Positions 1 to 10,852 of a stretch of DNA of 64,000 bases are shown in pieces. Both the position numbers and the translations under genes were made by a program. The first letter of the stretch is position 1, and every line of letters begins with the position of its first letter. Origin of the DNA: Kiloniellaceae bacterium (GTDB taxonomy: Bacteria; Pseudomonadota; Alphaproteobacteria; Kiloniellales; J153); the NCBI GenBank assembly GCA_021776095.1, contig JAJFGO010000098.1, positions 87,094 to 151,093 of the forward strand, given 5' to 3'. Under the pieces are notes generated by a model. The model saw nothing but the letters and a program-made list of their open reading frames with translations, had not been told where the DNA came from and did no database searches.

Positions 1-698
1 GCGGTATCGCATATCTTCTTGTACAGGCCTTGGAGAACGCCCTGCGCGAGGCCGGCAACGGGCGCCATGTGGCCTGCCTCTTGACCCAAGTCGAGGTCGA
101 TCCCGAGGACGCGGCTTTCGAAGATCCGGCCAAGCCGATCGGCCCGTTTTTCGACGCGGAGCAGGCCAAGCAGATCGGGATGGAACTCGGCTGGCTCATG
201 AAAGAGGATTCGGGGCGCGGCTGGCGCCATGTGGTGCCCTCGCCCAGGCCCAAACATATTTGCGACGTGTCCTTGGTTCAGGTCTTGGCGCGGCGCGGTA
301 CCGTGGTCATCGCAGGTGGCGGCGGCGGCATCCCGGTCGTTCGCGGGCCCAAGGGCGTGCGCCACGGCGTTGCCGCCGTGATCGACAAGGATTTGACCTC
401 GGCACTCATGGCCAATGTGCTGGGCATCGAGTTGTTGATGATCCTGACGGCGGTGCCGCGCGTCGCGATCCACTTCAACACGCCGCGCCAGGAATACCTG
501 GACCGGGTTACCTTGCGCAATTTGCGTGCCTTGCACGCGGAGGGGCATTTCCCGGCCGGCAGCATGGGACCCAAGATCGACGCCGCGATCCGTTTTTTGG
601 ACGGCGGTGGCGATCGTGTGATCATTGCCCATATCGACCAGGCCATGGCGGCCCTGAGGGGCGAAACCGGCACCCATATTGTGGCTGATGATGTTTGA
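1..698 (+). CDS. arcC: Carbamate kinase, C-terminal part (5' end outside window)
   Basis: Transfers phosphate between carbamoyl phosphate and ADP, giving ATP plus carbamate, in the cytoplasm. The reading frame is open from base 3, so the gene begins before the window; about 230 of the usual ~310 residues are present. The amino-acid-kinase fold is clear: a PSPRP segment, the glycine-rich stretch VVIAGGGGGIPVV, VIDKDLTSALMA, and the C-terminal family signature FPAGSMGPKIDAAIRF. The next gene begins inside its last codons, so they are co-translated. With a DUF2877 protein and an oxamate-hydrolase-like protein following, it probably harvests ATP from carbamoyl phosphate released during oxalurate breakdown rather than serving the arginine deiminase pathway. 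That role is inferred from context. Confidence 0.93.
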   Translation, partial: GIAYLLVQALENALREAGNGRHVACLLTQVEVDPEDAAFEDPAKPIGPFFDAEQAKQIGMELGWLMKEDSGRGWRHVVPSPRPKHICDVSLVQVLARRGTVVIAGGGGGIPVVRGPKGVRHGVAAVIDKDLTSALMANVLGIELLMILTAVPRVAIHFNTPRQEYLDRVTLRNLRALHAEGHFPAGSMGPKIDAAIRFLDGGGDRVIIAHIDQAMAALRGETGTHIVADDV

Positions 699-1632
699 GA
701 CCGGTGCGCCATATCGATTTCCGACCCGCAGCGGTGGCATGCGTGCGCTGGCGCTCTTACGCGCGGAGGCACCGTGCAAAGTCGTCGCCGTTTTTGCGCG
801 TAGTTTTTATCTGCAGAGTGCGGATGCCATGGCCTGCCTGGGCGGGCCGGAGATCGGCACCGGGCCGCTCAACGCTCAGATCGAAACGCCCCTTGGAATG
901 GACTGGCCGGCCAGCGGCCTGCGCCCGGGGGCCCAATGCCGGCGCGGCGCGGGCACGCTCTATTTGGCCAATCGATTCGCCCTGTCGTGGCACGGCGCGG
1001 CAACCTGGCGGCCCGCCCCGTGGCCAACGCGGATTGTACCGGCGGCGCTGGCGCGCGCGCTCAGCCATCTTGAAAGCGAATGGACGCAGTTGGCCCCGGC
1101 CGAGGGCTTGGCCCGGCCCGCCCTGGGTTTGCCGGGCCACAGACGTGCCGGCATCGCGCTGGCGGCGCGGGCGCCCCTGGCGGAGTCTCGTCGATGGTTC
1201 GCCGGCGTTCTGGGCTGCGCCGGAGGCGAGCAGGGGATCGGCGACCTCGCCTGGGTTAAGGATCTTGCCGGGCTCGGGCCCGGGCTGACGCCCTCGGGCG
1301 ACGACTTCTTGGGCGGGGTCACGATCGCCCTGCACGCCTTGGGCTATGCCGGCGCGGCGCGGCGCCTGGCCGGTGCTGCCGCAAGTGCCGCCGCCGCCAA
1401 TGGCAATGCCATTAGTGCCGCGCACCTTGATGCTGCTGGCGAGGGGCAAGGTTGCGGGGCGATCCATGATGTGTTGCATGGCTTGCTGCACGGCGATGAT
1501 ACAAGATTACACGCGAATCTCATGGCGATCGGACGGATCGGGCATAGTTCCGGCTGGGATATTTTGGCCGGGTTGGTCGCGGTCCTGCGTGTCTGGCGGG
1601 CCCAGCAAGACCTGCACCGCCAAGCTGCCTGA
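688..1632 (+). CDS. DUF2877 family protein, probable AllH-type oxamate/oxalurate carbamoyltransferase subunit
   Basis: A 314-residue protein of the DUF2877 (YlbF/AllH) family, recognised by the conserved block GLGPGLTPSGDDFLGGV near residue 200. In Escherichia coli this family sits with FdrA, YlbE and a carbamate kinase, and the three non-kinase proteins have been reported as an oxamate carbamoyltransferase. ATG 688 (or ATG 691) overlaps the end of the carbamate kinase gene by about 11 bases, so the two are translationally coupled. The other expected subunits (FdrA and DUF1116) are not in the window and should lie just upstream of base 1. Family assignment is firm; the biochemical role is inferred from family and neighbours. 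Confidence 0.82.
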   Translation: MMFETGAPYRFPTRSGGMRALALLRAEAPCKVVAVFARSFYLQSADAMACLGGPEIGTGPLNAQIETPLGMDWPASGLRPGAQCRRGAGTLYLANRFALSWHGAATWRPAPWPTRIVPAALARALSHLESEWTQLAPAEGLARPALGLPGHRRAGIALAARAPLAESRRWFAGVLGCAGGEQGIGDLAWVKDLAGLGPGLTPSGDDFLGGVTIALHALGYAGAARRLAGAAASAAAANGNAISAAHLDAAGEGQGCGAIHDVLHGLLHGDDTRLHANLMAIGRIGHSSGWDILAGLVAVLRVWRAQQDLHRQAA

Positions 1633-1662
1633 TCGCGTGCCAGGGGAACTTCGAGGAAAACT

Positions 1663-3255
1663 ATGATCCAGACAGCGCGCGCTTATTGCGGCATGGTCAC
1701 CGCGCCGCACCACTTGGCTGCTCGGGCTGGACTTCGGGTCTTGCAAGACGGCGGAAATGCGATCGAAGCTATGGTCGCGGCGGCCAGCACCATCGCCGTG
1801 GTCTATCCCCACATGAACGCCTTGGGTGGCGACAATTTTTGGCTGATCCATGCGCCCGGGCAAGAGGTTATCGGCATCGACGCCTGCGGTGGCGCCGCGG
1901 CGCGGGCCGACATCCAATTCTATGGTAGCCGAGGCCTGAGCGCGATTCCAAGCCGCGGTCCCTTGGCCGCTTTGACGGTGGGCGGCGCCGTGTCCGGCTG
2001 GCAAGAAGCGCTGCGATTGAGCGCTGAGACCTGGGGTGGGAGTATGCCCTTGGGGCGCCTGCTGGAGGACGCCGCCTTTTACGCCGAAGACGGCGTGGCG
2101 GTGACCGAAACCCTGGCGGGGAATTTGCGCGCCAAGCTGCCCGAATTGGCCGACGTACCGGGATTTTCGGAGACCTTCCTGCCTGGCGGAAAACTGCTGG
2201 ACCCGGGTGAGCGATTCCGTCAACCGCGCCTGGCGCAAACCTTGAAGCATCTGGCGGCGCGGGGCTTAAACGACTTCTACCGCGGCGATCTGGCCCGGAC
2301 CATCGCGGCCGATTTGGAACGTATCGGCAGCCCACTCACCCTGGCCGATCTGGAGCGGCACCGGGCCCTGCGGGTCGATCCTTTGAGCCTCGAGGTCGCC
2401 GGGCACCGGATCTATAACATGCCGCCGCCCACTCAAGGGTTGGCGTCGTTGGTTTTGCTCGGTGTCTTGGACCGGCTGGGGATTGGCAAAGCAGAAGGCT
2501 TCGACTACGTGCATGGCTTGGTGGAGGCGACCAAGGCCGCGTTCCGGGTCCGTGACCGGTATGTCACCGACCCGAAGTATATGACCCGCGATCCAGCCTC
2601 GTTCCTGGACGCCGAGGCGCTTGACGCCATGACGGCGGGAATCGACCGTGCGCACGCCGCACCCTGGCCGGAGGCGGCTCCCGGCGGCGATACGGTCTGG
2701 TTGGGCGCTATCGATGGCGAGGGCCGGGCGGTCAGCTTCATACAGAGCGTTTATTGGGAATTCGGCGCCGGTACCGTCTTGGCGGAAAGCGGCATCACCT
2801 GGCAAAACCGGGGCACCAGCTTCAGCCTGGACGAGACTCATCATAATTGCCTGAAACCGCACCGCCGGCCGTTTCATACCATCCAGCCCGCCTTGGCGCG
2901 GCTTTCGGATGGCCAGGTCATGCCCTATGGCACAATGGGTGGCGACGGCCAGCCGCAGACCCAGGCGATGGTCTTCACCCGCCATGCCCTGTTTGGCCAG
3001 GACCTTCAGTCAGCTGTGAGCGCACCGCGTTGGCTGCTCGGCCGGACTTGGGGCACGGCACACACCAACCTGCGGGTCGAGAATCGCCTGGCGCCCGAGG
3101 TCATCGAAGCCCTGCGGGCCGCCGGGCACGATGTCGAGGTGGTTGGCGCCTATGAAGAGGTTATGGGCCACGCCGGCGCGCTTGTGCACCATCCGGACGG
3201 CTTGATCGAGGGCGCCTGCGATCCGCGCAGCGACGGCTCCGCCGCCGGTTTCTAA
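1663..3255 (+). CDS. hpxW: Gamma-glutamyltransferase-family Ntn hydrolase, probable oxamate amidohydrolase (HpxW-like)
   Basis: A 530-residue autoprocessing N-terminal-nucleophile hydrolase. The expected cleavage point is Gly-Asp before Thr344 (GGDTVWLGAID), which would become the catalytic N-terminal Thr of the small subunit. The usual GGT signature after it is replaced by YGTMGGDGQPQTQ, which I associate with the oxamate amidohydrolase HpxW of Klebsiella rather than true glutathione hydrolases. There is no signal peptide, which also argues against a periplasmic GGT. It starts 30 bases after the DUF2877 gene behind GAGG (1653-1656). With carbamate kinase and the AllH-like protein it would convert oxamate to oxalate and ammonia. 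A generic gamma-glutamyl hydrolase remains possible. Confidence 0.75.
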   Translation: MIQTARAYCGMVTAPHHLAARAGLRVLQDGGNAIEAMVAAASTIAVVYPHMNALGGDNFWLIHAPGQEVIGIDACGGAAARADIQFYGSRGLSAIPSRGPLAALTVGGAVSGWQEALRLSAETWGGSMPLGRLLEDAAFYAEDGVAVTETLAGNLRAKLPELADVPGFSETFLPGGKLLDPGERFRQPRLAQTLKHLAARGLNDFYRGDLARTIAADLERIGSPLTLADLERHRALRVDPLSLEVAGHRIYNMPPPTQGLASLVLLGVLDRLGIGKAEGFDYVHGLVEATKAAFRVRDRYVTDPKYMTRDPASFLDAEALDAMTAGIDRAHAAPWPEAAPGGDTVWLGAIDGEGRAVSFIQSVYWEFGAGTVLAESGITWQNRGTSFSLDETHHNCLKPHRRPFHTIQPALARLSDGQVMPYGTMGGDGQPQTQAMVFTRHALFGQDLQSAVSAPRWLLGRTWGTAHTNLRVENRLAPEVIEALRAAGHDVEVVGAYEEVMGHAGALVHHPDGLIEGACDPRSDGSAAGF

Positions 3256-9349: not shown

Positions 9350-10852
9350 ATGGAAATGCCCCGCATCGCGATCGGCGGATTTCAGCACGAGACCAATACC
9401 TTCGCGCCGGTCAAGGCGGACTATCTTTCGTTCGCGGAGCCGGGCGGTTGGCCAGGCCTAACCCGGGGCGCGGATATGCTGGATACCTTCGACGGCATGA
9501 ACCTGCCCATCGCCGGCTTCATCGCGGAGGCGCGCGGCCGGCACGATTTGGTGCCGCTGACTTGGGCCCAGGCAACCCCCGCCGCCCATGTCACCGAGGA
9601 CGCCTTCGAGCGGATCGCCGGGGCGATCCTGGAGGACTTGCGCGCGGCGCTGCCGGTCGATGCGGTCTACCTCGATTCGCATGGCGCCATGGTCTGCGAA
9701 CACCTGGAGGACGGCGAGGGTGAGCTCTTGGCCCGAGTTCGCGCCTTGGTGGGGCCGGATCTGCCGCTGGTCGCCAGCCTAGACCTGCACGCCAATGTCA
9801 CTCCCCAGATGGTTGCCGAGGCTGACCTTCTGATCGCCTACAAAACCTATCCTCATATCGACATGGCCGAGACCGGAGGACGGGCGGCGGTCTTGCTGGA
9901 CCGGGTGTTGAGCGGCGAAAGCCTGCCCGGCAAAGCGTTTCGCAAGCTGCCGTTCCTGATCCCGATTCAGGCCGGGTGCACCATGGTCGAGCCGGCGAAA
10001 GGCCTCTATGGCCGGATCGGCGAGATCGAGGCTGGGCGTGCGGCCAGCGTATCCTTCGCTGCCGGGTTCGGCCCGGCCGATATTTGGGAATGCGGTCCGG
10101 CGGTCATGGCCTACGCGCCGACACAAGCGGCAGCGGAACGTGCAGCCGATGCCCTGACCGACGAGATCCTCGAACGCGAGGCGGAATTCACACTGCGGAT
10201 CTGGGAACCGGCGGCCGCGGTCAGCCACGCCAGGACGCGCGCGGCGAGCGCCGGCAAACCGATGGTATTGGCCGATTCTCAGGACAACCCGGGCGGTGGC
10301 GGCAGCAGCGATACGGTGGGTCTGCTCGCCGCACTGGTCGCGGGCGGGGCCGAGGACGCCGCGCTCGCCATTCTTTACGATCCCGAAGCCGCGGCGGCGG
10401 CCCACGCTGCCGGACTCGCCGCGACCCTGAACCTGGGTCTAGGGGCCAAGTCGGGCATGGCGGGGCACAGCCCCTACCAGGCCAGTTTCACGGTCGAGAG
10501 CCTGGGCGACGGCCGCTTCACCTGCACCGGCCCCTTCGACAAGGGTCTGCACATGAACCTGGGCCCCATGGCCGCTTTACAAATCGGCGGGGTGCGGGTC
10601 GTGGTCGCTTCGCGCAAGGTTCAGGCCTCGGACCGGCAGATTTTTCGCCACCTGGGGATCGAACCGGAGGCGCAGAAGATTTTGGGGCTGAAAAGCTCGG
10701 TCCATTTCCGGGCCGATTTCACCCCGATCGCCGAGGAGATCCTGGTGGTCAAGGCGCCCGGCGCCAATGCCCTGGACTACACGGAACTACCCTACCGCAA
10801 TCTGCGCCCCGGCTTGCGGGTCATGCCCAAAGGGCCCGTCTCCGGCACTTAA
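9350..10852 (+). CDS. M81 family metallopeptidase (MlrC-like)
   Basis: A 500-residue protein of the M81/DUF1485 family, whose founder MlrC acts on linearised microcystin peptides, although most members have unknown substrates. The conserved N-terminal GGFQHETNTFAP holds the metal-binding His and Glu; SHGAMV and LDLHANVTPQM follow. The C-terminal MlrC domain begins near residue 300 with ADSQDNPGGGGSSDT. There is no signal peptide, so it is cytoplasmic. GAGAGGAAGA lies just before ATG 9350; ATG 9356 is an alternative. The upstream EamA gene is tightly spaced and may move its substrate or product. Confidence 0.88.
   Translation: MEMPRIAIGGFQHETNTFAPVKADYLSFAEPGGWPGLTRGADMLDTFDGMNLPIAGFIAEARGRHDLVPLTWAQATPAAHVTEDAFERIAGAILEDLRAALPVDAVYLDSHGAMVCEHLEDGEGELLARVRALVGPDLPLVASLDLHANVTPQMVAEADLLIAYKTYPHIDMAETGGRAAVLLDRVLSGESLPGKAFRKLPFLIPIQAGCTMVEPAKGLYGRIGEIEAGRAASVSFAAGFGPADIWECGPAVMAYAPTQAAAERAADALTDEILEREAEFTLRIWEPAAAVSHARTRAASAGKPMVLADSQDNPGGGGSSDTVGLLAALVAGGAEDAALAILYDPEAAAAAHAAGLAATLNLGLGAKSGMAGHSPYQASFTVESLGDGRFTCTGPFDKGLHMNLGPMAALQIGGVRVVVASRKVQASDRQIFRHLGIEPEAQKILGLKSSVHFRADFTPIAEEILVVKAPGANALDYTELPYRNLRPGLRVMPKGPVSGT

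Follow-up and report, generated by a model that had tools for sequence, protein, structure and literature searches.

We analysed a 64,000-nt stretch of an alphaproteobacterial contig (the window; JAJFGO010000098.1, 87,094-151,093, or C120:87094-151093 of its own genome) whose first bases end an operon with genes for a predicted oxamic transcarbamylase (OXTCase). The closest described systems are those of E. coli, nitrifiers, Rubrobacter and Klebsiella. OXTCase activity has been assigned in E. coli to AllF, AllG and AllH, which convert oxalurate and phosphate to oxamate and carbamoyl phosphate, and ATP is then made by carbamate kinase (CK) (PMC11326118; here and below, cited reports are given as far as their available sections go). 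Measurements of this activity date from the 1960s and the naming of its genes only from 2024, and the arrangement of the subunits is unsettled (PMC11326118). Further, oxamate reportedly goes unconsumed in anaerobic cultures of E. coli (PMC8550087). The allFGHK clusters of nitrifiers likewise combine AllFGH with a carbamate kinase outside the enterics. In the available sections (PMC12625717), however, they adjoin biuret/triuret genes and are without upstream purine or allantoin genes, whereas our operon is predicted to encode a whole allantoin path and HpxW. Rubrobacter also brings carbamoyl phosphate and carbamate kinase into allantoin catabolism, but its ureidoglycine transcarbamylase resembles aspartate transcarbamylase (ATCase) and acts on allantoate, one step earlier (PMC4016543). 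K. pneumoniae is described, in the sections available, as being without AllFGHK (PMC11326118).

Based on its genes, we are confident that the start of the window is the 3' end of a predicted allantoin catabolic operon leading from allantoin to oxalate, with a small protein resembling the AllF tail as a likely part of its OXTCase. As judged from gene content, the operon joins the E. coli oxalurate branch (AllFGH and CK) to the initial steps and the final step of the Klebsiella HPX pathway, with this branch replacing HpxXYZ. The parts are known; no description was found of the combination of AllFGHK, HpxW and the aminotransferase, or of the small gene as a separate unit. A literature search that left most subscription journals outside its reach returned no report of alphaproteobacteria that combine AllFGHK with HpxW, nor of an AllF tail encoded on its own. 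The small separate gene is absent from the published account of OXTCase, which lists three genes.

The operon at the start of the window

The original prediction concerned the first 3,255 bases and read CK, a DUF2877 protein and a GGT-family (gamma-glutamyltransferase) hydrolase as a likely oxalurate/oxamate operon. These three genes are real, each passing its Pfam cut-off, and are tightly spaced: CK and AllH overlap by 20 bases, and 30 bases separate AllH from the GGT-family gene, whose product carries the GGDT cleavage point (Thr344) and the MGGDGQPQ motif. The test set in advance, a reading of the sequence upstream of base 1 for fdrA and DUF1116 genes, found both directly upstream. The operon assignment thus gained support, with the correction that the three genes are only the end of a run of 16 close-packed genes (small gene counted) whose first genes encode a transporter and a racemase and whose last is the GGT-like gene. 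Similarly, the roles given to CK, AllH and HpxW stand, but the three genes do not complete the pathway, as OXTCase needs AllF and AllG besides AllH, and probably a fourth, small gene, which lie upstream. Gene content, order and family membership of the operon are as follows, where L003 is the upstream stretch of the same contig, its last base directly preceding window base 1:

L003:6594-11244, operon direction: Liv-type ABC transporter (binding protein, two permeases, two ATPases)
L003:11250-11957: Asp/Glu/hydantoin racemase; best PDB matches named "putative hydantoin racemase" and "allantoin racemase"
L003:11968-12885: allantoinase PuuE (TIGR03212, 545.3 > 424.6)
L003:12879-14159: allantoate amidohydrolase (NF006775, 566.5 > 479)
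L003:14166-15473: second M20 deacylase, without equivalog assignment
L003:15470-16726: aminotransferase; best PDB match named "ureidoglycine-glyoxylate aminotransferase" (543 bits)
L003:16751-16930, before AllG on the same strand: small 59-codon gene
L003:16951-18201, start picked by comparison: AllG, DUF1116 (PF06545, 307.6 bits; cut-off 27)
L003:18198-19727: AllF, FdrA (NF004760, 483.4 > 433)
L003:19724: GTG start of the CK gene, 271 bases upstream of the window; full product 322 aa
window 1..698, + strand: 3' part of CK (PF00696, match 3-698, 53 bits; cut-off 24.9)
window 679..1632, + strand: AllH, DUF2877, OXTCase subunit (PF11392, 72.6 bits; cut-off 25)
window 1663..3255, + strand: HpxW-type Ntn hydrolase, predicted oxamate amidohydrolase (PF01019, 425 bits; cut-off 27; nucleophile Thr344)

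AllF is 43% identical to E. coli AllF over 497 aa, AllG 53% identical to E. coli AllG, and CK 38% identical to E. coli AllK. Full-length CK also passes the carbamate-kinase subfamily model NF009007 (324 > 266 bits). Two results weigh against these assignments: AllH shares just 30% identity with E. coli AllH over 200 aa, and full-length CK falls under the cut-off of the arcC equivalog TIGR00746 (336.7 < 358.25). An AlphaFold2 model of AllH (mean pLDDT 93.6) was compared with the PDB using Foldseek, which gave 522 matches at E <= 10 and none at E <= 0.001; the best VIA-align Z was 4.3. This model comparison shows neither a new fold nor a mechanism.

Unlike E. coli, the operon encodes an HpxW-type enzyme for oxamate, carries the AllF tail separately and places CK between AllF and AllH. 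E. coli has allC, allE and allD beside its operon; here the aminotransferase would make oxalurate. Neither AllE nor AllD was matched among the 22 locus proteins (the rest of the genome was not searched), and in 80 related loci AllE was found in one and AllD in none. These loci are the best 80 of 254 confirmed relatives from an AllG scan of genome contigs, and counts from them lean to close kin. With the Klebsiella HPX system, to which we take HpxA, HpxB and HpxK to belong, the operon shares the racemase, PuuE allantoinase, allantoate amidohydrolase, an HpxJ-type aminotransferase, HpxW and an HpxU-like RpiR regulator. The K. pneumoniae HPX record additionally shows hpxX, an AtzE-type gene and hpxZ, along with hpxU and the HpxJ-type gene. 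Here, in contrast, AllFGH and CK stand in place of HpxXYZ, which would save one ATP. HpxX and HpxZ were matched in 0/80 related loci at E 1e-8, a limit that distant copies of the 61-aa HpxX could escape. HpxY gave just 25-34% amidase matches, in seven of the 80 loci, and no AtzE-type protein passed the cut-off in the window's own genome. Because the HpxXYZ oxalurate module was not found, the operon was not classed as an HPX cluster.

The small gene ahead of AllG

Coding gaps in the run range from -20 to +74 bases, with the sole exception of 224 bases before AllG when the small gene is not counted. The small gene lies in this gap, 24 bases past the aminotransferase and 20 bases ahead of AllG. 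Its product is homologous to the AllF tail: it shares 55% identity with E. coli AllF 513-554 in an alignment of 42 residues, and it has matches to the NCBIfam FdrA model (positions 506-554 of 555; E 1.5e-11) and to PDB 3dmy (FdrA; residues 431-473; E 6e-8). It has no Pfam match. The AllF of the operon is without this tail, since it matches the model at 6-491 of 555 and a domain profile, built from stand-alone small-gene copies, only at E 0.31. The same profile was unmatched in all 66 AllF open reading frames (ORFs) called in the 80 loci (E 0.01 limit). The small gene corresponds to the C-terminal domain of E. coli AllF in the form of a separate gene, and we propose that its product is a part of OXTCase at the AllF-AllG contact.

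By tblastn the domain was present in 78 of the 80 related loci, ahead of AllG and on the same strand. It is a separate gene in 70 of these 78 and is fused in frame to AllG in 8/80 loci (L053, L070, L083, L087, L088, L092, L100 and L113). Elsewhere, the profile finds it in E. coli AllF, as the C-terminal end (about 504-554), and in a 1,003-aa joined FdrA-DUF1116 protein of Enterococcus faecalis, where it covers about 525-579 at the AllF-AllG junction. DUF1116 proteins of Peptoclostridium, an E. coli plasmid, Aminobacter and Methylocystis carry it N-terminally. When a domain is fused on either side of the same border, this often points to a shared complex, and the positions on both sides of the AllF-AllG border suggest a point where subunits meet. 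These fusions also bear on whether the 59-aa product is a working subunit or the gene is just a leader or decayed remnant, as its shortness, its hidden position between the aminotransferase and AllG and its missing Pfam match might indicate. The protein sequence is conserved with a coding signature over 69 stand-alone copies (68 loci and the window; two N-bearing copies excluded), in which codon positions 1/2/3 differ in 0.384/0.263/0.664 of comparisons, as in coding sequence. The domain is fused to AllF or AllG in other lineages, and its presence tracks AllF or AllH beside AllG. Given this, a leader or remnant is quite improbable.

The tracking was seen in a class control of 29 DUF1116 loci from other genomes (L005-L033, mostly about 1.5 kb per side of the match). 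The domain was present in 15 of these, as four short separate frames and 11 parts of the AllG frame, and not in the other 14. All 14 loci with AllF carried it, as did L032, which has an AllH match, in comparison to 0/14 loci without AllF or AllH. This split (15/15 versus 0/14) indicates that the domain follows the OXTCase context and not DUF1116 as such. DUF1116 identity to our AllG was 28-48% in the domain-less loci versus 48-81% in the others. Fusion was commoner than a separate gene in the class sample, with the reverse in the 80 closest loci. In the domain-less loci (L017-L022 and L024-L031), the stretch examined has a DUF1116 gene of the class but neither AllF nor AllH nor the small domain; the DUF1116 proteins there probably have a different function under the Pfam name AllG.

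Some observations do not fit this picture. Of the two related loci that missed the domain, the contig of L074 starts inside AllG, but L073 has sequence upstream of AllG and yet is without the small gene. Further, five loci in which no AllF was found (L052, L056, L060, L065 and L075, some on short contigs) still have the domain next to AllG; therefore, AllG may be its main, possibly its sole, partner. In four of these (L052, L056, L060 and L065), a creatininase-family gene adjoins AllG, AllH and the small gene, with ArgJ also present in three; they possibly encode an AllF-less relative of OXTCase. L075 is similar, although the creatininase gene was not called there. A structure model of the L053 fusion of small domain and AllG had a mean pLDDT of 82.9, with residues 11-50 of the small part in blocks of 78-85; its only PDB matches at E <= 0.001 were three chains of 3clq, as expected for AllG. 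The model carries no contact map and is not used here as evidence for an interface.

Taken together, we lean towards the view that OXTCase has a mobile fourth domain of about 50 residues at the AllF-AllG contact, which would mark true OXTCase among DUF1116 proteins and be needed for its activity. In this operon, such an enzyme together with HpxW would recover all nitrogen, where E. coli ends in unused oxamate. AllF, AllG and AllH cloned from genomes of this kind without the small gene may be inactive.

The HpxW-type hydrolase and its linkage to AllFGH

The last gene of the operon had been called HpxW-like, and this identification was borne out. Its product shares 55.3% identity with a K. pneumoniae ORF (L116) and 29.2% with E. 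coli GGT. We named the L116 ORF HpxW because the best PDB match of our hydrolase is 5hft, which we take to be Klebsiella HpxW, because the letters of the small chain of 5hft agree with L116 over the stretch compared, and because in a second K. pneumoniae record the stretch matching L116 sits between hpxU and hpxX. In a tree of 58 rows, the window protein and Klebsiella HpxW fall in one group of 44 rows with support 100/96. Among its other members are an hpxW of Paraburkholderia that adjoins an oxalate/formate antiporter and an Acidithiobacillus protein encoded next to HpxZ. It excludes E. coli GGT and seven GGT-family paralogues of the own genome, several of which are long-branched and unsure in their own positions. 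Hicks and Ealick, cited in PMC5270733, reportedly found in 2016 that HpxW hydrolyses oxamate. The hydrolase is HpxW-type by these comparisons and is predicted to be an oxamate amidohydrolase.

We also considered the chance that this gene encodes an ordinary GGT, or a broad YwrD-type acylase, that lies beside an AllFGH operon by accident. Pfam and TIGR00066 both assign it to the GGT family, although the TIGR00066 score of 306.8 is under the cut-off of 357.85, and public plasmid records mostly label such genes gamma-glutamyltransferase, among the matches listed. E. coli GGT, however, has R114, N411, D433, S462 and S463, which we take to bind the gamma-glutamyl group, and the window protein has C, Y, S, H and T instead. 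Their equivalents are kept in 0/44 rows of the tree group, while the nucleophile Thr is present in 44/44. It should be noted that the gamma-glutamyl residues are also lost in other non-GGT members of the family (e.g. L122, L123 and L107). The loss therefore speaks against GGT but not by itself for oxamate, and alone it does not exclude a YwrD-type acylase. The own genome has seven further GGT-family proteins (on C39, C36, C32, C10, C68, C5 and C93), among which only the paralogue at C39:9102 keeps R114, D433, S462 and S463. A classical GGT was ruled out by residues, tree position and identity, and given also the conserved linkage of HpxW-type genes to AllFGH described below, the ordinary-GGT or acylase explanation as a whole is highly unlikely. 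These results support HpxW as the name for the GGT-like genes of this clade that public records label gamma-glutamyltransferase.

Across the 80 related loci (HpxW-type at >=55% identity, aminotransferase at >=60%), AllF was found in 72, AllH in 65, CK in 56, the HpxW-type gene in 42 and the aminotransferase in 32. In the 40 loci with at least 6 kb on either side, these counts were 38, 36, 35, 31 and 18, respectively, and AllF, AllH, CK and the HpxW-type gene occurred together in 27. Microvirga massiliensis (L090) is one relative that has these four with AllG and the aminotransferase. The exact order aminotransferase-AllG-AllF-CK-AllH-HpxW was repeated in 14 of the 80. With seven GGT-family genes placed at random in a genome of this size, one would be expected in roughly 1.2 out of 40 loci of 21 kb, versus the 31 observed; thus, a GGT-family gene beside AllFGH is not due to chance.

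The linkage was also examined in a class sample of 289 genomes, with tests that ignore kinship between genomes. AllG was present in 28 and the HpxW-type gene (>=50% identity) in 25. The latter was found in 10/28 genomes with AllG versus 15/261 without (Fisher p = 1.8e-5; 7.4e-5 with the own genome excluded). In a post hoc comparison, it was present in 8/14 genomes with the small domain in or beside AllG versus 17/275 (p = 2.1e-6). The association has clear limits, in that 18/28 class genomes with AllG are without an HpxW-type gene, and the two genes lie within 5 kb on one contig in only 4/10 genomes with both. HpxW in alphaproteobacteria is not itself new, since a study of 22 alpha- and gammaproteobacteria used gene context to distinguish hpxW and ggt, according to the sections available (PMC3560190). 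On Azospirillum plasmid p04 (L117), an HpxW-type gene is flanked by a TauE/SafE exporter and a Liv-type transporter, with xanthine-dehydrogenase-family genes after the latter, and no AllFGH is annotated in that stretch.

Four related loci in SAR324, Thioglobus and Pedosphaera metagenome-assembled genomes (L099, L104, L109 and L110) have a carbamoyltransferase of the ATCase or ornithine transcarbamylase type and an asparaginase before the aminotransferase, AllG and AllF; the Pfam naming of both enzymes was run on the L109 copies. AllH is present in L099 and L104 and CK in three of the four, and no HpxW-type gene was found in the stretch. The asparaginase could replace HpxW in these loci. If the L109-type carbamoyltransferase resembles the ureidoglycine transcarbamylase of Rubrobacter, both ureido groups would be phosphorolysed.

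Predicted pathway, possible substrates and genomic setting

We infer the substrates and the role of the transporter from the gene families. The Liv-type ABC importer would take up allantoin, which the racemase and PuuE allantoinase would convert to allantoate. Allantoate amidohydrolase would then release S-ureidoglycine, NH3 and CO2, and S-ureidoglycine would become oxalurate when the ureidoglycine aminotransferase passes its amino group to a keto acid. Phosphorolysis of oxalurate by AllF, AllG, AllH and the small AllF-tail protein would give oxamate and carbamoyl phosphate. From the latter, CK would produce ATP, NH3 and CO2, and the HpxW-type hydrolase would split oxamate into oxalate and NH3. 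If these predicted reactions hold, 4/4 allantoin nitrogens would be recovered without urea or urease, and one ATP would be saved.

The own genome (95.4% complete) had no match to HIU hydrolase or OHCU decarboxylase. Imported allantoin, not home-made urate, is therefore the likely substrate. No oxalyl-CoA decarboxylase passed the cut-off in this genome (other routes for oxalate were not searched), a point against the predicted pathway. Fermentative or nitrogen-scavenging use had also been predicted. The genome encodes three COX1-family heme-copper oxidase genes, so "fermentative" is without ground, and it is safer to read the use as nitrogen scavenging that brings an ATP bonus. Urease alpha was not found over the cut-off in the own genome, in which urease-family matches were weak (best E 8.5e-6). 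The idea, taken from E. coli, that OXTCase is linked to the absence of urease was not borne out in the class sample: urease was present in 10/28 genomes with AllG versus 69/261 without (p = 0.37), and in 4/14 with the small domain in or beside AllG. This urease distribution and the heme-copper oxidases of the own genome suggest that the ATP-yielding oxalurate branch is not confined to anaerobic, urease-negative enteric bacteria.

Another explanation would be that the AllFGH-CK-HpxW module acts on a different ureide, either a cyclic one opened by an amidohydrolase or a biuret-like one, with the allantoin genes as mere neighbours. The aminotransferase was not seen in the examined stretch of 19/42 HpxW-type loci; therefore, the module is not tied to allantoin. 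Elsewhere it is accompanied by a cytosine-deaminase-like amidohydrolase (of cluster 8 in 11 loci and of cluster 32 in four), and an Aminobacter plasmid has an AllF/AllG pair beside a ring-opening amidohydrolase. In our operon, however, the oxalurate-yielding aminotransferase directly precedes the small gene and AllG, and the 14 repeats of the full gene order include it. We therefore give a different ureide very little probability here and keep oxalurate from allantoin as the predicted substrate.

The cluster 8 loci (L039, L042, L043, L044, L057, L059, L063, L066, L086, L088 and L092) and the cluster 32 loci (L107, L108, L111 and L112) have AllG, usually AllF, CK and AllH, and partly an HpxW-type gene, with no aminotransferase in the stretch; a TetR regulator and a Liv-type transporter are partly present. 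In these loci the module may act on a ureide other than oxalurate from allantoin. This could be cyclic, parabanate being a guess. The Aminobacter conjugative plasmid pSR8 (L144) carries FdrA, DUF1116, the ring-opening amidohydrolase, CK, another amidohydrolase and a BMP-type transporter. Its AllF/AllG pair is perhaps used on a different ring-opened ureide.

The second M20 deacylase of the operon (L003:14166-15473) was matched in just one of the 80 related loci (27%). A YgeX/YgeY-type urate route, made up of this enzyme and the ammonia-lyase at L003:243-1529, was considered and set aside: the two genes are more than 12 kb apart, the lyase belongs to a divergent TRAP group, and the M20 protein scored 92.9 bits as YgeY, far under the model's 321. 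The lyase itself is a diaminopropionate ammonia-lyase (500.9 > 276 bits) beside a TRAP transporter (L003:243-3972), on the opposite strand upstream of the operon. Two regulators lie between this group and the transporter of the operon:

L003:5592-6350, divergent from the operon: GntR regulator
L003:4669-5580, farther upstream: RpiR regulator, 32% identical to Klebsiella HpxU

Within the window, a 500-aa ORF at 9350-10852 presumably resembles an M81/MlrC-type metallopeptidase.

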